Assembly: GCF_011065895.1 (NCBI RefSeq)
Contig: NZ_JAALCR010000009.1
Location: 1 to 64,000, forward strand
Reading direction: 5' to 3'
DNA length: 64,000 bases
From: Paludisphaera rhizosphaerae
GTDB lineage: Bacteria > Planctomycetota > Planctomycetia > Isosphaerales > Isosphaeraceae
The position numbers and the translations under genes are program-made. Positions within the stretch are counted from its first letter, which is position 1. Each line of letters begins with the position of its first letter. Below, piece by piece: positions 24,776-36,633 of this stretch. Under the pieces are notes generated by a model, which was not told where the DNA came from, made no database searches, and saw only the letters and a list, made by a program, of their open reading frames with translations.

Positions 24776-27025
24776 GTGTACTACGCACATACAGCGAAGG
24801 ATCGTGACTGGGAGCCACTTAGGGAACATCTCGTTGAAACGGCGGATCGGGCGGAGGGATTCGCCTCGGCGTTCCATTCGGGGCCGTTGGCGAGACATGC
24901 CGGCCTCTGGCACGACCTCGGGAAATACAGCGAGGCGTTTCAGGCCTATCTGAAGCTAAGCGCGAGCCTCGGCGACGAGGTCCACCAATCCGACTTGCGG
25001 GGGACGGTCGACCACTCGACCGCCGGCGCCCAACATGCCGCCAAGCACGGGCCTGTAGGTCGGCTCCTGGCCTACTGCATCGCGGGGCACCACGCGGGTT
25101 TGCCCGACGGCGAAGGTGAAACAGTGTCATGCCTCAGGGGCCGGTTGGGCAAGGTGATCGAGCCGATCGAGGCGGCACCGGCTGACCTCAAGGAATTGGG
25201 CCGGTTGCCTATCCGCCCACTACAGACCAAGCACGACAGGGAGAAGCCTTTCGCCCTGGCCTTCTACACGCGGATGCTCTTCTCCTGCCTGGTCGACGCC
25301 GATTTCCTGGCCACGGAGAAATACCTCGACCCCGATCGCTCCGAACACCGGGTGGACGGGGCAACTTGCAACCAGTTACGCGAGAGACTCGATCGTTATC
25401 TCGCCGAAAAGGTCAACGACGCCACCCACGTCAACCGTCGACGCGCGGAGGTCCTGGACGCCTGCCGCGCGAAGGCGTCGCAGCCCCCGGGCTTTTTCTC
25501 GCTGAACGTCCCCACGGGAGGGGGCAAGACTCTTTCTTCGCTCGCCTTCGCCCTTAGGCACGCCGAGGAGCACGACCTGCGTCGGGTCGTCTATGCGATC
25601 CCGTTCACGAGCATCATCGAGCAGACGGCCGACGTCTTTCGCGAGGCGCTGGGCGACGAGGTGCTCGAGCACCACAGCAGCCTCGAACCCGACGATCCGG
25701 CCCGGCAGACCGTCCGCTCTCGACTGGCCGCCGAGAACTTCGACGCCTCGCTGATCGTCACGACGAACGTCCAGCTCTTCGAGTCCCTCTTCGCCTCCCG
25801 CACCTCGCGCTGTCGGAAGCTCCACCGCCTGGCGAAGAGCGTCATCATCCTTGATGAGGCCCAGACCCTCCCCCCCAAGTTGCTCGCCCCGACGCTCGCC
25901 GCGCTCCGGGAACTCGTCGTCAACTACGGGTCGACCGTGGTCCTCTGCACGGCCACCCAGCCGGCGATCGAGCACCGCGAGTCCTTCCCCATCGGCCTCG
26001 AATGCGTCCGCCCCATCATCGACGATCCCCACGCCCTCCACCGCGACCTGCGTCGAACCTCCGTCGAGATGGCGGGTGAGCTGACTGTGGAAGAACTGGC
26101 CGCTCGCTTGGAGGAGGAGAAGCAGGCCCTCTGCATCGTCAACTCGCGTCGCCACGCCGCCGCGATCTTCCAGGCCCTCGACGACCCCAACGCCCTCCAC
26201 CTGAGCGCCTCGATGTGCGCCGCGCACCGATCGGAGGTGGTCAGGGAGATCCGAAGGCGTCTGAGTCGGTGCCCCGACGAACCGTGCCTGGTCGTCTCGA
26301 CCCAGGTGATCGAGGCCGGCGTCGACGTGGACTTCCCGACCGTCTACCGCGCCGCCGCCGGGCTGGATTCGATCGCCCAGGCGGCCGGTCGCTGCAACCG
26401 CGAAGGCAAGCTCACCGGCCCAGACGATCTGGCACGCCTCGGCCGCGTCGTGGTCTTCGACTACGACGCCAAGTCCTTCCGGACCGTCCCGCTCATCGAA
26501 CGCGCCGCCTGCCGCTTCCACGAGGTCGCGCCCGATCACGCCAACGACCTGCTCGCCCCCGAGGCGATCGAGGCTTACTTCGGCCTCCACTACTGGAACA
26601 TCGGTGGCGATCTCGGTCAGGGCTGGGACAAGGGAGCCGAGGACCGGAGCGTCATGGAATGCTTCTCCCTCGACCGCTCCGTCGGCCTTCGCGCTCAGTT
26701 CCGCGAGGCTTCCTCCGCTTATCGGCTCATTGACGACGCCCAGACGCCGATCCTCGTCCCGTTCGGCGAGCAGGGCAAGCATCTAATCGAACGGCTCGAA
26801 TCCCTTCCCGAAGCCCCCGACCCGAAGGATCTTCGCGCCTTCGACCGAAGGGCGCAGCGCTACACGGTCGGTGTGTTCGATCGCGACCTGTGGAAGCTGG
26901 ATCAAAACCACGTCCTCCTCGAACGCCATGGGCGATTTTATCTGGGCAATCCTGGGGCATATAACGAGCAACTGGGCCTGGACTACAAAGTGCTCGGCCT
27001 GGATGCGGAAGCTCTGGTTATCTGA
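24776..27025 (+). CDS. cas3: CRISPR-associated helicase-nuclease Cas3
   Basis: This is the effector nuclease-helicase of a type I-C system, 749 residues. The GTG start at 24776 has AGGAAGG nine bases upstream. The N-terminal HD nuclease has LWHDLGKYSEAFQAYL, VDHSTAGAQH and AYCIAGHHAGL. The SF2 helicase has VPTGGGKTLSSLAFALRHA (Walker A), VIILDEAQTLPPK (DEAQ box), VLCTATQPAIEH and a C-terminal STQVIEAGVDVDF...QAAGRCNREG motif VI. Cascade recruits it to nick and unwind the targeted strand. It stands apart from the other cas genes, separated by a hairpin terminator, the antisense repeat-like RNA and a small ORF, so its expression may be independent. Confidence 0.96.
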   Translation: MYYAHTAKDRDWEPLREHLVETADRAEGFASAFHSGPLARHAGLWHDLGKYSEAFQAYLKLSASLGDEVHQSDLRGTVDHSTAGAQHAAKHGPVGRLLAYCIAGHHAGLPDGEGETVSCLRGRLGKVIEPIEAAPADLKELGRLPIRPLQTKHDREKPFALAFYTRMLFSCLVDADFLATEKYLDPDRSEHRVDGATCNQLRERLDRYLAEKVNDATHVNRRRAEVLDACRAKASQPPGFFSLNVPTGGGKTLSSLAFALRHAEEHDLRRVVYAIPFTSIIEQTADVFREALGDEVLEHHSSLEPDDPARQTVRSRLAAENFDASLIVTTNVQLFESLFASRTSRCRKLHRLAKSVIILDEAQTLPPKLLAPTLAALRELVVNYGSTVVLCTATQPAIEHRESFPIGLECVRPIIDDPHALHRDLRRTSVEMAGELTVEELAARLEEEKQALCIVNSRRHAAAIFQALDDPNALHLSASMCAAHRSEVVREIRRRLSRCPDEPCLVVSTQVIEAGVDVDFPTVYRAAAGLDSIAQAAGRCNREGKLTGPDDLARLGRVVVFDYDAKSFRTVPLIERAACRFHEVAPDHANDLLAPEAIEAYFGLHYWNIGGDLGQGWDKGAEDRSVMECFSLDRSVGLRAQFREASSAYRLIDDAQTPILVPFGEQGKHLIERLESLPEAPDPKDLRAFDRRAQRYTVGVFDRDLWKLDQNHVLLERHGRFYLGNPGAYNEQLGLDYKVLGLDAEALVI

Positions 27026-27053
27026 TGCGGAATCACCTCCAGATCCGGGAAAT

Positions 27054-27081
27054 GTGGTGGGAGGTCTCGTCCTCCCACCAC
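27054..27081. terminator. Hairpin after cas3, also 3' end of the antisense RNA
   Basis: GTGGTGGGAGG (27054-27064), a six-base loop TCTCGT and the exact complement CCTCCCACCAC (27071-27081) form a perfect 11-bp stem. It could end cas3 transcripts rightward and the repeat-like RNA leftward. No T-run follows on either strand. Confidence 0.65.
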
Positions 27082-27188
27082 AGACGCACCACTGCTATTC
27101 GCAACCCGTCACGTGTTTCAATCCACACCCGGTGAGGGTGACGCAAGCAATCGGCGGAATTCGAAGCGGGGCCTCTTGCCTCCGATCG
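27054..27188 (-). ncRNA. CRISPR-repeat-like regulatory RNA (CreR/CreA-like candidate)
   Basis: Read on the minus strand, 27142-27115 is a degenerate copy of the array repeat. It has GTCACCC, a five-base loop TCACC, GGGTG, then the intact 3' handle GTGGATTGAAAC. The stem pairs CACCC with GGGTG although its bases differ from those of the array repeat. The sequence then runs 33-34 bases (27114-27081), exactly a spacer length, into the 11-bp hairpin at 27054-27081. A -10-like TATGAT on the minus strand (27200-27195) could start the RNA near 27188. The first 17 bases of the pseudo-spacer match 27231-27247 with mismatches only at positions 6 and 12, next to a TTC PAM. Single degenerate repeat units of this kind are known as Cas-regulating RNAs or CreTA antitoxin RNAs in other type I systems. 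Transcription and processing by Cas5c are inferred. Confidence 0.75.
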
Positions 27189-27227
27189 CGACTAATCATA
27201 TCCTGAACCAGCCAGAACATAAACTCA

Positions 27228-27264
27228 TTCACGTGGCGGGTAGCGAAATCACTTTTTTGCTCGG
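27228..27264 (+). promoter_or_regulatory. PAM and protospacer-like target of the antisense RNA
   Basis: TTC at 27228-27230 is the type I-C PAM. The next 17 bases, ACGTGGCGGGTAGCGAA, match the pseudo-spacer start ACGTGACGGGTTGCGAA except at positions 6 and 12. Position 18 also differs and similarity ends there. The site lies between a -10-like CATAAA (27218-27223) and the ATG at 27274. Cascade bound here would block transcription into the small ORF and the cas5-cas2 operon. Confidence 0.72.
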
Positions 27265-27273
27265 AGGGTCAGC

Positions 27274-27525
27274 ATGAGTGCACGTCTTCTCAAGATAGCG
27301 ACCGAACTCTTGCGCGAGCTCAAAACCCCATTGGATCGACTTCCGTACACCGCAGAGTTCGAGCCGATTTACGCGCAGTTTCTCCAACGTGCTGGGGCGG
27401 ATCTGTCGCGACACGACGTTTGGTGGGCGCTACTCCACTCGCGTAAGCGGGGAGACGGACGCTCCTCCGATGGTCGTGGGCGTATGCGCGCTGGTCGGCC
27501 TGGACCGAGCGTGGCCAAGGCTTGA
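27274..27525 (+). CDS. Small protein of unknown function between cas3 and cas5
   Basis: This is an 83-residue protein with GGAGGG five to ten bases before its ATG. The core LLKIATELLRELKTPLDRLP, YTAEFEPIYAQFLQR and LSRHDVWWALLHSRKRG resembles short planctomycete proteins of the LPYT-x-EF type, which have no known function. The helical, basic C-terminus could bind nucleic acid. It is not Cas6, which type I-C lacks. It is the first gene after the protospacer-like site and is followed by an 8-bp-stem hairpin before cas5. It could be the repressed gene of a CreTA-like pair, a leader ORF of the cas operon or an unrelated passenger. The last 25 residues are low-complexity and may be out of the original frame. 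Confidence 0.6.
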   Translation: MSARLLKIATELLRELKTPLDRLPYTAEFEPIYAQFLQRAGADLSRHDVWWALLHSRKRGDGRSSDGRGRMRAGRPGPSVAKA

Positions 27526-27540
27526 ATCCTTCACCGCCGA

Positions 27541-27562
27541 GGCCGCCAGCCGTTTGGCGGCC
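27541..27562. other. Hairpin between the small ORF and cas5
   Basis: GGCCGCCA and TGGCGGCC form an 8-bp stem with a six-base loop, 16 bases after the small ORF stop and about 35 bases before the cas5 start. It may act as an attenuator or weak terminator separating the small ORF from the cas operon. No T-run follows. Confidence 0.45.
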
Positions 27563-27595
27563 TCCACCAATAACTCTGACCACCAGGGTGGCTTC

Positions 27596-28252
27596 ATGAG
27601 TGTTCGTCTTCGCGTTTGGGCGGGGCTCGGCTGCTTCACACGCCCCGAGATGAAGGTGGAGCGCGCTAGCTATGATGTAATCACGCCGTCGGCCGCCCGT
27701 GGTGTCATCGAGGCGATCTACTGGAAGCCAGAGATTCGCTGGGTAGTCACTCGGATTCACGTCCTCAAGCCAATCCGTTTCACATCACTCCGACGCAACG
27801 AGGTCGCGAGTAAGATCCCGGCGACGACAGCGGCGTCGGCGATGAAGGCCGGGAAAGGTCGTCTCGGCACGTATGTCGAGGAGGACCGGCAGCAGCGCGC
27901 GGCGACGATCCTCCGCGACGTCGACTACGTCATCGAGGCCCACTTCCAGATCCTGAGCGGCGAGGACAACCCGGCGAAGCATCTCGATCAGTTCAACCGG
28001 CGCGCCCGCGAGGGCCGGTGTTGGAGCCGGCCTTTCCTCGGCTGCCGAGAGTTCCCGGCGAGTTTCGCCCTGGTCGAGGAAGGTGAGGCCCTCCCCGCGG
28101 TTCCCGACGAATTGAAGGTAGAGCGCGATCTCGGGTTCATGCTCCACGACATCGACTTCAACGACGGAATGACGCCGCGGTTCTTCCGCGCCGTGCTTCG
28201 CGACGGTGTGATCGACGTCCCCCCCTTCGACTCGGAGGAGGTCCGCCGATGA
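27596..28252 (+). CDS. cas5: Cas5c (Cas5d), crRNA-processing Cascade subunit
   Basis: This is a 218-residue protein starting MSVRLRVWAGLGCFTRPEMK, the canonical N-terminus of Cas5 in type I-C. The frame is open upstream, but this ATG matches the family start. Further family segments are SARGVIEAIYWKPEIRW and CWSRPFLGCREFPASF. In type I-C it replaces Cas6 by cutting repeats to leave an 11-nt 5' handle, and it caps the Cascade complex. It overlaps cas8c as ATGA. The intact handle in the antisense repeat-like RNA would be its processing site. Confidence 0.93.
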   Translation: MSVRLRVWAGLGCFTRPEMKVERASYDVITPSAARGVIEAIYWKPEIRWVVTRIHVLKPIRFTSLRRNEVASKIPATTAASAMKAGKGRLGTYVEEDRQQRAATILRDVDYVIEAHFQILSGEDNPAKHLDQFNRRAREGRCWSRPFLGCREFPASFALVEEGEALPAVPDELKVERDLGFMLHDIDFNDGMTPRFFRAVLRDGVIDVPPFDSEEVRR

Positions 28253-30027
28253 ACCAGGCCGCACCCGCCAGTGGTCTGCTCCCCGCCCTGATCGCCTACT
28301 ATCATCGACTCGAAGCCGACCCGAATGCGGTGGTCGCCGATTTCGGGTTCAGCATCGAAAAGATCCACGCCCAGGTCGTGCTGGAGCCCGACGGCTCGCT
28401 TTTCGGTTTCGAGGACGTTCGGGAAGAGGTCCAGCGCGGCAAGAAGAAGACCACCGTCCCCAGGTCGATCCTCGTCCCCGATGGCGGCGGGCGAGCCGGC
28501 ACCGGCATGAAGCCGTTCTTCTGCTGGGACAACACCGGGTACGCCCTCGGCCGAGACACCAAGGGAAACCCTTCCCGAGCCGCCGAGATGTTCGCGGCCT
28601 TCCGCGACCTGCACCATTCGTTCCGCGACGAACTCTCCGACGACGTGGGCTTTGCCGCGCTCTGTCGATTCCTCGACGGCTGGGAGCCCGCCAGGGCCGC
28701 GGCGTTGCCGAACTGGGAAGAACTCGCCGGTCTCAACGTCGTCTTCAGACTCCGAGGGCGGGCGGGCTACGTCCACCAGAGCGAGAAAGTCAAGGCGGCC
28801 TGGCTGCGCCGATCGGCAAGCGACGCCGAGGCCGACCCCAGGCTGACCGGCCTCTCCCTGGTCTCAGGCGAGCGCGACGAACTTGCTCGGCTCCACCCGT
28901 CGATCAGCGGAGTCGCCGGCGCGAACACGACGGGGGCGGCGATTGTCTCGTTCAACCTCAATGCGTTCGAGAGCTACGGCAAGTCCCAGAGCTACAACGC
29001 GCCGGTCGGCGTTCGCGACGCCTTCCGTTACACCACGGCGTTGAACCGCCTCCTCGCCGACGACTCGCGGCGGGTCCGCATCGGCGACGCCACGGTCGTC
29101 TTCTGGTCCGATCGGGAGACGGCGGCGGATGCCGAGTCGGTGTTCACGGCCTTCTTCGCCGACGGTTTCAATGTGGAGGATCCGGCCGAACATAAAGCGA
29201 CCGTTGAGCGGGTCGAGGGTTTCTTGAAAGCCGCCCAGCAAGTTCGACTCGGCGACGCGATCACCGACCCCGAGGCCCCGTTCTACGTCCTCGGCCTCTC
29301 GCCCAACGCGAGTCGGCTTAACGTCCGCTACTGGCTCGTCGGTACCGTCCATCAGTTCGCCGAGCGATTGGCGACACATGTCAAGCAACTGGACATGATC
29401 GGTGCGCGGCAGAACGACCCGCTTTTCATCCGCCGGTTGTTGCTTGAGTCGGCCCGTGAGCCGAAGGACATTCCCCCACAACTGGCCGGGGAGTTCGCAC
29501 GAGCCGTCCTGAGTGGGCTCCGCTACCCACAGGCGATGTTCGGCGCGATCATCCGCCGTATCCGCGCTGACGCTCGGATCAATCACCCCCGGGCCGCGAT
29601 CCTTAAGGCCTTCTTGATCCGCAACTTCGATTTGGAGGTCCCCGTGGCACTCGATAAAAACCATCCGGACGAGGCGTACCAACTCGGACGACTGTTCGCG
29701 ACCCTGGAGAAGACGCAGGAGGATGCGACCGACGGGAAGCTCAACACCACCATCAAGGATCGCTTCTTCGGCTCGGCCGCCGCCACGCCCGCCAGCGTCT
29801 TCCCGAGGCTCTTGCAGCTTCATCATCACCACATGAGGAACCTCGAACACGAGGGCCACCGTATCGCGCGCGGCAAACTGCTGGGCGAGATCGTGGGGCG
29901 CATCGCCTCATTCCCCAGGCACCAGCCCCTCGAACGTCAGGGGCTCTTCTACATCGGCTACTACCACCAGCGTCAGGACTTCTTCACCCCTAAGTCCGCG
30001 AACGACAAGGACATGACCAATGAGTGA
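28249..30027 (+). CDS. cas8c: Cas8c (Csd1), Cascade large subunit
   Basis: This is a 592-residue protein of the type I-C large subunit family, of normal length. Typical segments are [13 protein letters not shown] at the N-terminus, [52 protein letters not shown] and ending with [18 protein letters not shown]. It recognises the PAM and initiates unwinding of the target; in type I-C an internal start usually also produces Cas11c from its 3' part. It overlaps cas5 by four bases and cas7 by eight, indicating one operon with coupled translation. Confidence 0.95.
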
Positions 30028-30964
30028 CGCCCTCTCCCACCGATACGACATCGTCTACTTCTTTGACATCACCGACGGCAACCCGAACGGCGATCCCGAT
30101 TCCGGCAACCTACCCCGACTCGACCCGGAGACTGGCCAGGGCCTGGTCACCGACGTCTGCCTGAAGCGGAAGATCCGCAACTTCGTCGGTCTCACCCACG
30201 GCGAGCAGCCGCCGTTCGAGATCTACGTCAAGGAGAAGGCCGTCCTCAACCAGCAGCACGAGCGAGCGTACTCGGCGCTGAAGCTGGACGCCAAGAAACG
30301 CTCGGCCAAGGGGAAGGACAAGGCCGAGGAGGACCGTCGGCTGACCCGTTGGATGTGCGACAACTTCTTCGACATCCGGACCTTCGGGGCCGTCATGACA
30401 ACCGAGGTCAACTGCGGCCAGGTCCGCGGCCCGATCCAGTTCGGCATCGCGCGCTCGCTCCACCCGATCATCACCCACGAGCACGCCGTCACGCGATGCG
30501 CCGTGACGACCCCCGCCGAGGCCGAGAAGCAGGACGGCGGCAACCGCACCATGGGCCGCAAGTTCACGGTGCCCTACGGCCTCTACCGGGTCCACGCCTT
30601 CGTCAATGCGAACCTCGCCAGCGGGTCAAACGGGACCGGTTTCTCCGAGGCCGACCTGGAGCTTTTCAAGCGGGCGCTCGACCAGATGTTCGAGAACGAC
30701 AAATCCGCCGCCAGGGCCAATATGAAGCCCGTGGCGTGCGTCGCCTTCCGCCACGAGAGCCCGCTCGGCAACGCCCGCTCGGACAAGCTCTTCGCCCGAG
30801 TCCAATGCGGCGTCAAGCCGGGCGTCCAGCCCCTCCCCGGCGACTCGGAGACGTCGGTCGACGAGGGCCGACCCCCGCGGTCGTTCGACGATTATGTCCT
30901 GACGGTCGACGAGGGCGGCCTCCCCCAGGGCGTGACCGTCGAGCGCTGGGTCGACTGGACCTGA
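30020..30964 (+). CDS. cas7: Cas7c (Csd2), Cascade backbone subunit
   Basis: This is a 314-residue member of the Csd2 family. Signatures are [53 protein letters not shown] and [14 protein letters not shown]. Several copies polymerise along the crRNA, and their thumb loops flip out every sixth base. Mismatches at positions 6, 12 and 18 are therefore tolerated, which explains the mismatch pattern of the self-target upstream of cas5. The start overlaps cas8c by eight bases. Cas4 follows after three bases. Confidence 0.96.
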
Positions 30965-30967
30965 GCC

Positions 30968-31615
30968 ATGCCATACTCCGAGACCGACCTGCTGCCGATC
31001 TCCGCCCTCCAGCACCTGCTGTACTGCGAACGGCAGTGCGCGTTGATCCACGTCGAGCGGCAGTGGGCGGAAAACCGGGAGACGGCCCAGGGGAACATCC
31101 TCCACAAGAAGGCCCACGGCGGGAAGTCGACCACGAGGCCCGAGGGGCGTTCCCTTCGGGCCTTGCCGCTGCGGTCGCTCGCACTGGGACTCTTCGGTGT
31201 GGCCGACGTCGTTCAGTGCCGGCCGGGCGAGCCGCCGGTCCCCGTCGAGTACAAGCGGGGACGTCCCAAGAAGAACGACTGCGACCGCGTCCAGCTCTGC
31301 GCGCAGGCCCTATGCCTTGAGGAGATGACGGGCCAGCCCGTCCCGCTCGGTGAGTTGTTCTACGGCAAGACGCGACGTCGCGTCGCCGTCGAGACGTCGC
31401 CGGGACTGCGTCGCGTGACGGCCGAGGCGGCGGCCCGGCTCCACGAGCTGATCCGCGACGGTCGCACGCCAACAGCTGAGCCCGGACCGAAATGCGAACG
31501 CTGCTCGTTGCGGGAATTGTGCCTCCCCCACCTCGGCCGACGCGGTTCCGCCCGATCGGCATTCGACCGGCTGCTCGACTCCGTAGTCGCCGCCGAGGAG
31601 GAAAACAGTCGATGA
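30968..31615 (+). CDS. cas4: Cas4 adaptation exonuclease
   Basis: This is a 215-residue RecB-like nuclease that trims prespacers and helps select PAMs during acquisition. The first iron-sulfur Cys is in LYCERQCAL and the last three in CERCSLRELC. The RecB motifs are GNILHKKAH, the VADVV segment and VEYKRG with the QL-x2-YA-like VQLCAQAL. Its length is normal. The stop overlaps the cas1 start (ATGA). Confidence 0.93.
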   Translation: MPYSETDLLPISALQHLLYCERQCALIHVERQWAENRETAQGNILHKKAHGGKSTTRPEGRSLRALPLRSLALGLFGVADVVQCRPGEPPVPVEYKRGRPKKNDCDRVQLCAQALCLEEMTGQPVPLGELFYGKTRRRVAVETSPGLRRVTAEAAARLHELIRDGRTPTAEPGPKCERCSLRELCLPHLGRRGSARSAFDRLLDSVVAAEEENSR

Positions 31616-32655
31616 AGACCCACCTCAACACTCTGTACGTCACGACCCAGGGCTCGTACCTCGCCAAGCAAGGGCTGACGGTGCAGGTCCGGATCGACGG
31701 CAAGCCCCGGGCCCAACTTCCGCTGCACAACCTTGAGGGGATCGTCTGCTTCGGCCGCGTCGGCTGCTCGCCCGCGCTGATGGGCGCCTGCGCCGATCAG
31801 GGGGTCGCGATCTCATTCCTCACGGAACGGGGCCGTTACCTGGCGTCGGTACGCGGAGCCTCTCACGGGAACGTCCTGGTGAGGCGACGGCAGTATCGGC
31901 TGGCCGACGACCCCTCGACAGCCCTCGACGTCGCACGTCGGATCGTCCTGTCCAAGGTGGCGAACTCACGAAGCGTGCTCCTCCGCGCGGCTCGGGACGC
32001 CGAGGGCGCGGCGAATCGCGTCGCGGAGCTTCAAGCCGCCGCCAACCGCCTGTCGGCCTCGGTTCACGAACTCCGCGGAGCGACGTCGCTCGACTCCATC
32101 CGCGGCCTCGAGGGAGAGGCGGCCACGCATTACTTCGGAGCCTTCAACGCCCTGCTCAGCAACGCCCCCGCGAGTGACACTTTTCGATTCACTCGGCGGA
32201 GCCGCCGCCCGCCGCTGGATCCGATCAACGCCCTGATCTCGTTTCTGTACACCCTGCTGCTTCACGACGCCCGATCCGCCTGCGAGGCCGTCGGCCTCGA
32301 CCCCTGCGTGGGCTTCCTCCACGCCGACCGGCCGGGCAAGCCCAGCCTAGCTCTCGACTTGATGGAGGAACTCCGAGCGTACGTCGCCGATCGCCTCGCC
32401 TACTCCCTGATCAACCGACGTCAGGTCTCCGCCGACGGCTTCAAACTCCTCGATAACGGGGCGATCGAGATGACCGACGCGACGCGCAAGGCCGTCCTCG
32501 TCGCTTACCAGGAGCGCAAACGCGACCCACTGACGCACCCCTTTCTCGCCGAGAAGACCGTCGTCGGCATGCTCCCCCACCTCCAGGCTCTCCTCCTCGT
32601 CCGCTGGATCCGCGGCGACCTCGACGCCTACCCGCCTTTCCTCTGGAAAGGTTGA
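31612..32655 (+). CDS. cas1: Cas1 integrase, type I-C
   Basis: This is a 347-residue spacer integrase. The start at 31612 overlaps the cas4 stop and gives the expected N-terminus, [15 protein letters not shown]. The catalytic Glu lies in [13 protein letters not shown], the His in [19 protein letters not shown] and the Asp just after it in the same segment. The closing SLINRRQV and [19 protein letters not shown] are typical of the subtype. It works as a complex with Cas2 at the leader-repeat junction downstream. All catalytic positions are present. Confidence 0.96.
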
Positions 32656-32734: not shown

Positions 32735-33025
32735 ATGTACGTCCTCGTGACTTACGACGTTCAGACGACCTCGCCCGACGGCAAGCGACGACTGCGACGC
32801 CTGGCCCGAGCCTGCCTCGACTACGGCCAACGCGTACAGCTCTCCGTGTTCGAGCTCAAGCTCGACCCCGCCCTTTGGGCCAGTTGCCGCGAACGCCTCC
32901 TCTCCATCATCGACCCCGAGCATGACAGTCTTCGGGTCTATCATCTGGGCTCCCGCTGGGAAGGCCTGGTCGAGCACCACGGAGCCAAGCCCGGCTTCGA
33001 TCTCGAAGGGCCCCTGATTCTCTGA
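32735..33025 (+). CDS. cas2: Cas2 adaptation subunit
   Basis: This is a 96-residue protein with the ferredoxin-like Cas2 fold. Beta-1 is [11 protein letters not shown] with the conserved Asp. [18 protein letters not shown], the arm VYHLGSRW and the end DLEGPLIL match the subtype I-C form. It bridges two Cas1 dimers during spacer integration. It is the last cas gene, 177 bases before the first repeat. Confidence 0.95.
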
Positions 33026-33202: not shown

Positions 33203-36200
33203 GTCGCCCCCCATGCGGGGGCGTGGATTGAAACATCACCCACGAGTACTTCGTCGACGAGATCGAGAGTCGCCCCCCATGCGGGGGCGTGGATTGAAAC
33301 TGCAACCGGGGTTCGAGCTGCGAGAGGCGGCGGGTCGCCCCCCATGCGGGGGCGTGGATTGAAACCTCCGGGGGACGGGGAGGCGAGGGATGAAGTTCAG
33401 TCGCCCCCCATGCGGGGGCGTGGATTGAAACTTTGCACAGATCGAGTATGGGGTGGGGCTCAAGTCGCCCCCCATGCGGGGGCGTGGATTGAAACGTGAA
33501 GAGGAGTGCTAGGGCGCAGCGAGCCTTCACGTCGCCCCCCATGCGGGGGCGTGGATTGAAACTCACGCAGCTCCTTGGCCGTGATGTGGCCGACGGTCGC
33601 CCCCCATGCGGGGGCGTGGATTGAAACCAGGCTCCTGAGTTGTAGAACCGCTTGGAATCTTGGTCGCCCCCCATGCGGGGGCGTGGATTGAAACCTCGAA
33701 GGTCGCTGCGAGCACACCCGCAAGGCGTAGTCGCCCCCCATGCGGGGGCGTGGATTGAAACTTACGTACGCCAACCCTGCCTTTCATCACGTCTCGGTCG
33801 CCCCCCATGCGGGGGCGTGGATTGAAACAAACTGACCGAGGCCAAGGCCCTGGGCGTCCCCCAGGTCGCCCCCCATGCGGGGGCGTGGATTGAAACTCGC
33901 CGTGCGAGTGGCGAAGCCTGGACGGCCTGGTGTCGCCCCCCATGCGGGGGCGTGGATTGAAACCCAGCCAAATCCAAGGTCGTCTCAGCCTCCCAGCGGG
34001 TCGCCCCCCATGCGGGGGCGTGGATTGAAACGCTGACGGCACGTCCTTTAGGATCGCCAGTGCTGGTCGCCCCCCATGCGGGGGCGTGGATTGAAACACC
34101 ATGCGGAGGTCGATCGCCCGAATCCGCTTCAGTCGCCCCCCATGCGGGGGCGTGGATTGAAACTTAGTACGGGTGTCCTAAAGCATGGCGAGTTGAGTCG
34201 CCCCCCATGCGGGGGCGTGGATTGAAACCTCGACAACTGAGACAGATCCGACTCCGCCGACGTCGCCCCCCATGCGGGGGCGTGGATTGAAACGTCTGAT
34301 GCCCTATATGCCACCCCCGGCACAATGTCGCCCCCCATGCGGGGGCGTGGATTGAAACCTCGCCACCGGCCGCACCGGGAGCACGCTGACCGTCGCCCCC
34401 CATGCGGGGGCGTGGATTGAAACATGGCTTCGCAAAGCGCGAAGTAATAGCCCTCCATGTCGCCCCCCATGCGGGGGCGTGGATTGAAACGCGATGTCCC
34501 CAAGGGCTTCGTCGCCGATGGAGCCGTCGCCCCCCATGCGGGGGCGTGGATTGAAACCAGTGAGCATGCTGTGTGATGTCAGACGGTCAGAGCGTCGCCC
34601 CCCATGCGGGGGCGTGGATTGAAACTCATGCACGCGGACAACCTGAAGCTCATGCCGAGTCGCCCCCCATGCGGGGGCGTGGATTGAAACCTCAAGCAGT
34701 CCTTGATTGTGCCGGCGGCGGCCCTGGTCGCCCCCCATGCGGGGGCGTGGATTGAAACGAGATGGTACAACAAACACTCCCTGGAGGCGAAGCGTCGCCC
34801 CCCATGCGGGGGCGTGGATTGAAACCACCGGGCTTACACCGGCGATGGCTACGTTCACGACGTCGCCCCCCATGCGGGGGCGTGGATTGAAACTACGGCC
34901 GAGCGGCGAGCGTCACTGAATGGCTGCTGTCGCCCCCCATGCGGGGGCGTGGATTGAAACCATCGGAGGCAGTCTCACGCTGGCCCCGGGGACGTCGCCC
35001 CCCATGCGGGGGCGTGGATTGAAACCTATGGTGGATATGGTGCATGGCATGGAAAACGAGTCGCCCCCCATGCGGGGGCGTGGATTGAAACCTTGGTCAA
35101 CCCGTTGAGCCACAGCCAGAGTCGAGTCGCCCCCCATGCGGGGGCGTGGATTGAAACCGTGGATTCCGAAGGCGTCTGCCCCGTGGCGATTCGTCGCCCC
35201 CCATGCGGGGGCGTGGATTGAAACGTTTGGTTTCCTCGCCAACGGGCCGCTCCCACATGGTCGCCCCCCATGCGGGGGCGTGGATTGAAACGTGTTGTCC
35301 GAGCCGTTGACGGCCCCGCTGGTGGAGTCGCCCCCCATGCGGGGGCGTGGATTGAAACTCACGTCTGGGGCCAGTCGTCCATGACAACCGCGTCGCCCCC
35401 CATGCGGGGGCGTGGATTGAAACACGAACGTCGCGGCCGACTGTCGCAAATACGCCGAGGTCGCCCCCCATGCGGGGGCGTGGATTGAAACGACTCGTTC
35501 GACGGACTTGATGGGGTTTGTGACTGTCGCCCCCCATGCGGGGGCGTGGATTGAAACCGCAATGGCTTTCGCGATCTTCCTGGCGTCGGCTTGTCGCCCC
35601 CCATGCGGGGGCGTGGATTGAAACGGCTTCCCCACGGTGGCCGTCGACACCCACGCCGGGTCGCCCCCCATGCGGGGGCGTGGATTGAAACCCAACGGTC
35701 GACTTCTCAAGCGACACCCCCCTTCGTCGTCGCCCCCCATGCGGGGGCGTGGATTGAAACGCTCTGGGCTCGCGGGCGAGGCGGAGCCCCTCCGCGTCGC
35801 CCCCCATGCGGGGGCGTGGATTGAAACCGTATCCCGGTTCACCGAGGACGCGAGGGTAACAAGTCGCCCCCCATGCGGGGGCGTGGATTGAAACGTCTCG
35901 GCCTCGATCGACTCGACCGGCGCGACGGGCGTCGCCCCCCATGCGGGGGCGTGGATTGAAACCGCTCCACCCTGGCGACTCACCGGACCTTATCTGGTCG
36001 CCCCCCATGCGGGGGCGTGGATTGAAACCATCCAGTACCAGCCTGGTTCAGTCGGAAGCCCTTGTCGCCCCCCATGCGGGGGCGTGGATTGAAACCAGTA
36101 TGGACCCAACCCCGACTCCAACAACGGCCAGTCGCCCCCCATGCGGGGGCGTGGATTGAAACTCGCTGCGTGGCGGGGAGACAACGCGGATGACGGGTCG

Positions 36201-36633
36201 CCCCCCATGCGGGGGCGTGGATTGAAACTTTGACGAGGGGCGGGACTACGTAGAAATGCCCTTGTCGCCCCCCATGCGGGGGCGTGGATTGAAACGCAGT
36301 TGGTGCAGTTGATCCCATCGGGCCAACTGACGTCGCCCCCCATGCGGGGGCGTGGATTGAAACTGCCTCCCGAACGTCAGCGTCAGTCCGGCTACCTATG
36401 TCGCCCCCCATGCGGGGGCGTGGATTGAAACGAGCCGCCGACCTGCTGCCGGTTCAACTCGCGGAGTCGCCCCCCATGCGGGGGCGTGGATTGAAACGCT
36501 CGGAGCCGATGAACACGGCCTGGCCATAAGGGGTCGCCCCCCATGCGGGGGCGTGGATTGAAACGGCGAACGATTCCGCTCCCCATTCGGCGGGAGATGT
36601 CGTCGCCCCCCATGCGGGGGCGTGGATTGAAAC
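33203..36633 (+). CRISPR. Type I-C CRISPR array, 52 identical repeats
   Basis: The 32-bp repeat begins GTCGCCCCCCATGCGGGGGC and ends GTGGATTGAAAC, the standard type I-C form. By eye I count 52 copies with no sequence variation, with start-to-start periods of 64-69 bases (spacers 32-37 bases). A further degenerate repeat start, GTCGCCCCCATCGAGTGG, lies at 36670 after the last spacer and marks the distal end. Transcription runs rightward from the leader beside cas2. The uniform repeats and large spacer number suggest recent, active acquisition. Open frames across the array encode repeated RPRMGGD-type peptides and are artefacts. Confidence 0.98.

Follow-up and report, generated by a model that had tools for sequence, protein, structure and literature searches.

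Our analysis of a type I-C CRISPR locus in the planctomycete Paludisphaera rhizosphaerae points, with high probability, to a single-repeat RNA of the CreA/CreR type that directs the Cascade encoded by the same locus to the leader shared by a small ORF and cas5, so that this unit is repressed without cleavage. The window, i.e., the whole stretch of DNA analyzed here, comprises 64,000 nucleotides of the contig NZ_JAALCR010000009.1. Type I-C is one of the commonest CRISPR subtypes; it has the smallest Cascade, and Cas5c replaces Cas6 in it. The window contains a complete locus of this type on the plus strand, with an array and all seven cas genes in order, each scoring above the NCBIfam cut-off: cas3, coding for an HD nuclease and helicase (24776..27025; TIGR01587, TIGR01596), cas5c (27596..28252; TIGR01876), cas8c/csd1 (28249..30027; TIGR01863), cas7/csd2 (30020..30964; TIGR02589), cas4 (30968..31615; TIGR00372), cas1c (31612..32655; TIGR03640) and cas2 (32735..33025; TIGR01573). 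The plus-strand array (33203..36633) has 52 repeats of 32 nt (GTCGCCCCCCATGCGGGGGCGTGGATTGAAAC) and spacers of 33-36 nt. The cas3-cas5 interval is 570 bp long and contains an 83-codon small ORF. An Rfam search of the window returned a tRNA as its sole match.

The minus strand of this interval carries the three parts of the candidate guide RNA gene. The first is a degenerate CRISPR repeat, GTCACCCTCACCGGGTGTGGATTGAAAC (27115..27142), which is shortened relative to the array repeat and shares its final 12 nt, so that the handle GTGGATTGAAAC is intact; its stem is CACCC/GGGTG. Across relatives this stem stays complementary via double changes, with pair 4 appearing as T-A, A-T or C-G. In the 8.05-Mb genome, the handle occurs in the 52 array copies and at a single other place, the pseudo-repeat itself (27115-27126, minus strand). 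The second is a 32-nt guide, ACGTGACGGGTTGCGAATAGCAGTGGTGCGTC (27083..27114), and the third is a perfect 12-bp hairpin with a 6-nt loop (27053..27082; arms 27053-27064 and 27071-27082). The initial annotation had described this repeat, its handle and its stem, followed by a spacer-length segment and a perfect hairpin; the sequence agrees on each, save that the hairpin had been given as 11 bp. Nearly all planctomycete relatives likewise have a strong hairpin beyond the guide, at about 30-35 nt, and in several of them (L069, L070, L071, L078, L090 and L102) it is followed by a T-tract; the hairpin in the window is trailed by a short T-run, TTT only. This recurrence suggests a gene built of one repeat and a terminator, in which the hairpin is likely to form the 3′ end of the guide RNA, taking the place of a second pseudo-repeat.

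The first 17 bases of the guide recur on the plus strand at 27231..27247 (ACGTGGCGGGTAGCGAA), directly behind a TTC PAM (27228..27230). Mismatches fall at positions 6 and 12 only, and then at position 18, so that 15 of the 15 contact positions match. Hence, the claim of a TTC-preceded match with these mismatches, amounting to an effectively perfect 15-contact seed, was re-found at every position. When the guide was shuffled 20,000 times, no shuffled version found a site behind TTC between cas3 and cas5 with 2 or fewer contact mismatches, as against 0 mismatches for the real guide. The sequence TTCACGTGNCGGGTNG has one mismatch-free occurrence genome-wide, with no second exact site.

An ad hoc scan picked out two promoter-like elements, each a weak match with 8 of 12 consensus positions: TTGCCT-N17-TATCCT for the small ORF (27176..27204, plus strand) and TTTATG-N17-TATGAT for the guide RNA (27195..27223, minus strand). 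The two are divergent and overlap each other; a promoter/terminator tool with a stricter scan returned nothing at its thresholds. A -10-like hexamer also lies 24-30 nt ahead of the PAM in four other loci (L066, L069, L070 and L071). The target stands between these predicted elements and the start of the small ORF. The placement of the target in the promoter region, as first proposed, can thus be kept for the upstream region of the small ORF and cas5 and refined within it: the target probably sits in the leader, about 17-20 nt past the start site that the scan predicts and off the -10.

We then compared 136 type I-C loci collected via Cas5c, which comprised relatives of the window locus, members of its phylum, 80 named genome contigs spread over many phyla and five plasmid loci. 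A pseudo-repeat was called where a near-exact handle lay at most 1.4 kb upstream of cas5, and a target where the same locus had a site behind TTC, GCC or GTC with at most 2 mismatches in the 15 contact positions, positions 6 and 12 being ignored. This yielded 43 pseudo-repeats near cas5, of which 27 have guides that match a PAM-flanked site within the locus they come from; 5,805 guide/locus swaps gave 2 hits; under a stricter requirement for a 10-of-10 seed the figures are 22 of 43 and 1 of 5,805. The 27 matching guides all differ in sequence, and since their loci are partly related they do not represent 27 independent events. The paired pseudo-repeat and target that the initial annotation had asked for in other I-C loci is therefore present in close and distant relatives alike, each with its own guide sequence, and on these comparisons the match is not a product of chance.

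The distribution of mismatches over guide positions 1-20 in these 27 loci is 1, 0, 0, 0, 1, 23, 1, 2, 2, 0, 2, 19, 3, 1, 3, 4, 8, 16, 20 and 22. Position 6 is mismatched in 23 of the 27 (85%) and position 12 in 19 (70%); as the search was blind to both positions, this is the level of unconstrained bases. Cascade flips out every sixth base, and mismatches at 6 and 12 are, as a sequence pattern, the signature of Cascade. Guide-target pairs also go with the width of the cas3-cas5 gap, being found in 24 of 41 loci with a wide gap and 3 of 93 with a narrow one (Fisher p ~1e-12, computed ignoring relatedness). By the first criterion, 16 of the 43 pseudo-repeats are without a target, and include some far pairs, decayed pairs and chance motifs in genes. 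The supposition that all unmatched pseudo-repeats are false proved partly wrong: in two loci (L063 and L204) the target match is confined to guide positions 1-11, and six loci of a second clade use GCC or GTC. A handle-free search of wide-gap loci lacking a pseudo-repeat (L064 and L068) found internal repeats only.

On sequence criteria, at least five phyla have type I-C loci with differently spelled self-matching pairs. Among the Planctomycetota they occur in the window's genus (L069), in Tautonia sociabilis (L142, on the same contig as L071), in other families (L078, L100 and L102) and in the Phycisphaerae (L158 and L192). Beyond these, they are seen in Desulfobacterota-type genomes (L148, L193, Desulfonema magnum L161 and Solidesulfovibrio alcoholivorans L182), Verrucomicrobiota (Opitutus L175, and L200), Bacillota (L196, Paenibacillus sabuli L213 and Pelosinus propionicus L216, with the last pair lying upstream of cas3) and Pseudomonadota (L219, plus L204 with a seed-only match). 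The PAM is TTC in every pair of the canonical clade; it is TTT in S. alcoholivorans.

Several variant architectures also came to light. Another I-C clade of planctomycetes (L082, L084, L085, L086, L090 and L092), which has repeats of 37 nt and whose Cas8 and Cas7 score as I-C in the family models, shows the same architecture with targets behind GCC or GTC, which suggests that this lineage uses a different PAM. In two loci of the window's own genus (L080 and L081, from genomes G005 and G001), the pseudo-repeat is on the plus strand just upstream of cas5, within the 900 bp before it, and is preceded by an ORF of about 200 aa with a sigma-70 region 2 (PF04542), upstream of which lies the guide target; the cargo here may be a sigma-factor-like gene. 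In L171 and L168 (Neisseria sp. and Neomegalonema), a repeat-guide-repeat unit stands directly ahead of cas5, with no target found in the interval. In L066 (G009; from -1184 to cas5), the target is followed by a 171-aa ORF with no assigned family, and then by roughly another 570 bp before cas5.

We propose that the I-C Cascade here very probably represses genes instead of cutting DNA. By analogy with the CreA/CreR literature, the minus strand of the interval would be transcribed into a solitary crRNA-like RNA comprising the degenerate repeat, the 32-nt guide and the hairpin end, which Cas5c would process and which would load into the locus's own type I-C Cascade. The loaded guide would then pair with the template strand at 27231-27247, just downstream of the small-ORF promoter, using the TTC PAM and the seed positions 1-5, 7-11 and 13-17. 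As the match appears too short to license Cas3, Cascade would stay in place as a roadblock and repress the transcription unit of the small ORF and cas5. More free Cascade would mean stronger repression, and competing crRNAs, an anti-CRISPR or the loss of Cascade would release it. For CreA, a seed-only match is known to permit Cascade binding and repression with no cutting by Cas3, and mutating any of positions 1-5 or 7-11 of haloarchaeal CreA breaks repression, while mutating 6 or 12 does not (PMC8501985). This precedent makes repression by the locus's own Cascade the likeliest mechanism, and the same pattern of needed and free positions is the one preserved in the sequences of the I-C guides. 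The earlier proposal of a CreR/CreA-like guide aimed upstream of the small ORF and the cas5-cas2 operon is thus supported by the pairs in relatives.

What this repression might serve depends in part on the small ORF (27274..27525, plus strand; GGAGG at 27263-27267). It codes for an 83-aa protein with the pattern PLDRLPYTxEFxxxYxxF...RHDVWWxLLxxRKRG, which is conserved as a protein in 8 loci at 27-58% identity to the window copy, with the invariants D..PYT..F...G...W...RKRG. Searches with Pfam, NCBIfam and PADLOC gave no match, and in Pfam there was none up to E = 1, and hence no KilA-N. An AlphaFold model built from 4 sequences (pLDDT 73) has three helices; Foldseek gave E > 3 for it, and the best VIA Z was 5.4, with mixed rows of helix-turn-helix, homeodomain and unrelated structures. 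The close subfamily of this protein occurs beside guides only, namely in G000, G003, G017, G033, G034, G038 and G095 and in the Phycisphaeraceae locus L192; the guide of G017 is that of L063, with its match limited to positions 1-11. Guides also exist without the small ORF and above other cargo. In the window, the small ORF is co-directional with cas5 across a 70-bp gap, in which a hairpin without a T-tract, GAGGCCGCC...GGCGGCCTC (27539..27564, plus strand), may serve attenuation or processing.

The same domain turns up in other settings too. In Planctomycetota (among L226, L229, L231, L245 and L248) argininosuccinate lyase ends in a tandem pair of it and AAA_14 ATPases carry it as a repeat at the N-terminus; no Pfam model covers it. 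Distant relatives of the small ORF in L116 (3835-5297) and L118 (3830-5223) overlap the end of a Fic-domain gene, their start codon lying inside its stop codon (ATGA); the domain is thus found in Fic operons too.

Other loci have other cargo. In Paenibacillus sabuli, positions -284 to -173 (counted from cas5), between the target and that gene, code for a Hol_Tox peptide (PF16935, E 3e-9), and a strong hairpin lies downstream of it. In the Opitutaceae locus L200 (from -950 to cas5), a solitary repeat and guide adjoin a PIN-domain gene, and the target separates this gene from one for a FitA-like antitoxin. In L193 and L219, short hydrophobic peptides are encoded under the target.

Two accounts of the purpose share the above mechanism, and we place the likelihood of either somewhat below even. 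One, for which we would give not quite an even chance, is pure autorepression as in CreR: the promoter would be that of the cas5-cas2 operon, the guide would fix the set point of Cascade production, and the small ORF would be a passenger or helper. Indeed, the target is always upstream of cas5 and in the same direction, there is no credible ORF between the two in six loci (L100, L148, L161, L175, L182 and L196), and no convincing promoter of its own was found for cas5 in the window (best 7 of 12). Moreover, CreR is known for I-B, I-E and V-A (PMC13131331). However, autorepression leaves unexplained the absence of the small ORF from loci that lack a guide. It also does not account for the separate cas5 leader conserved in the genus g17, where the last ~160 bp before cas5, including a TGGACA-N17-TAAAAG element in the same place, are kept both in a locus with the cassette (L065) and in two from which it is absent (L064 and L068), so that the cassette is separable there and cas5 may have its own promoter. 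The initial annotation's view that the guide silences the locus accordingly survives as one of two live readings, though not as the exclusive one.

The other account, to which we assign a chance somewhat short of even, is that the guide keeps the small ORF off and the small protein harms the cell once Cascade goes missing or an anti-CRISPR blocks it, as in CreTA or CrePA; the cassette would then make the I-C system addictive or trigger abortive infection. The restriction of the close subfamily to the vicinity of guides (seven loci and L192), the presence or absence of the g17 cassette before an unchanged leader, and the Hol_Tox, PIN/FitA and hydrophobic-peptide genes under targets elsewhere all speak for it, as does the I-F CreTA of Acinetobacter, which occupies the same place, between cas3 and csy1, with an ORF divergent from creA (PMC10097628). 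Against it, the repeats of the domain on argininosuccinate lyases and AAA ATPases are not toxin-like, and the small ORF seems to share an operon with cas5 in four cases, namely the window, L070, L078 (with a 4-bp overlap) and L192. The linkage of the small ORF to guides, together with the retention of the g17 leader, makes the sequence arrangement more like CreTA/CrePA. A more specific proposal, which we advance tentatively and regard as rather doubtful, is that this is an I-C addiction cassette with a protein cargo, wherein Cascade, led by a guide RNA with one repeat, keeps a new small helical protein in check. Between cas3 and cas5, different I-C loci would then have taken up many such cargos, each exchangeable for another (Hol_Tox, PIN, hydrophobic peptides, sigma-factor-like). 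The small protein would in that case be the stand-alone form of the planctomycete domain fused to argininosuccinate lyase and AAA ATPases.

Repression by Cascade, whichever purpose it serves, has also to be set against two accounts that dispense with it. It is very improbable that the pseudo-repeat and guide are a relic, i.e., a repeat-spacer unit broken off an old array with an accidental self-match: the cell's own chromosome can supply spacers and arrays do leave solitary repeats behind, but such a unit should match over its full spacer and not in 15 contact bases with 6, 12 and 18 free, and the recurrence of the pair with new sequences in 27 loci, judged by the swap test, refutes this in the main. 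Least probable of all is that the two segments act as an antisense RNA, a plain terminator or an inverted repeat, through RNA-RNA pairing or a DNA cruciform. Guide and target do form a DNA inverted repeat in the divergent loci, but the guide RNA reads in the same direction as the leader of the small-ORF mRNA; it can therefore pair with the template DNA only and not with the mRNA, which led us to reject it as an antisense RNA. In L080, L100, L161, L182 and L213 the two are direct rather than inverted repeats, and the PAM, handle and period-6 pattern would be left without a role.

If the I-C loci of many phyla run self-aimed guides, then the I-C Cascade would be a native transcriptional repressor. 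Anti-CRISPR sensing by lost repression may then be general, and new small toxins or regulators could be sought simply by looking in the cas3-cas5 gap. The guides provide a test of themselves as well, in that sequence evolution has recorded the free positions 6 and 12.

On every sequence feature tested, the guide in the window works like CreA/CreR. In its setting it is close to the Acinetobacter I-F CreTA (PMC10097628), which is likewise inserted between cas3 and the next Cascade gene in an operon that is unbroken in other strains and species, and which has a divergent guide gene, a PAM-flanked partial match and a small ORF with a Shine-Dalgarno sequence downstream of the target; its start site too is upstream of the target, that of the window being predicted. 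It differs in using Csy4 and a CC PAM, in having two pseudo-repeats instead of one and a hairpin, and in its 11-codon mini-ORF/RNA toxin, the counterpart of which here is a conserved protein of 75-90 aa. With the haloarchaeal I-B CreTA/CreA (PMC8501985, PMC9458426) it shares the TTC PAM, pairing over 1-5 and 7-11 with 6 and 12 free, and a degenerate repeat bearing the handle, and creA of Haloarcula hispanica also consists of one repeat and a terminator (PMC8501985); the haloarchaeal systems are distinguished by an 8-nt handle processed by Cas6, a tRNA-sequestering RNA toxin and an archaeal host (PMC8501985, PMC9458426). CreR of I-B, I-E and V-A, as cited by PMC13131331 and PMC12737573, is comparable in directing a guide of limited complementarity to a cas-locus promoter and in its expected response to crRNA load and anti-CRISPRs; unlike in CreR, a small ORF intervenes between target and cas5 in the window. 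CrePA, described in PMC12737573 as CreA with a protein toxin that is typically, and not universally, KilA-N, is similar in that the guide would repress a protein-coding gene, and differs in that the small protein of the window has neither KilA-N nor another Pfam match. We found no I-C CreR or CreTA in the open-access literature, and the primary CreR and CrePA papers may still predict I-C cases. Thus, we judge from its sequence that the window locus represents a new subtype, I-C, and a new cargo for the known CreA/CreR-type guides.
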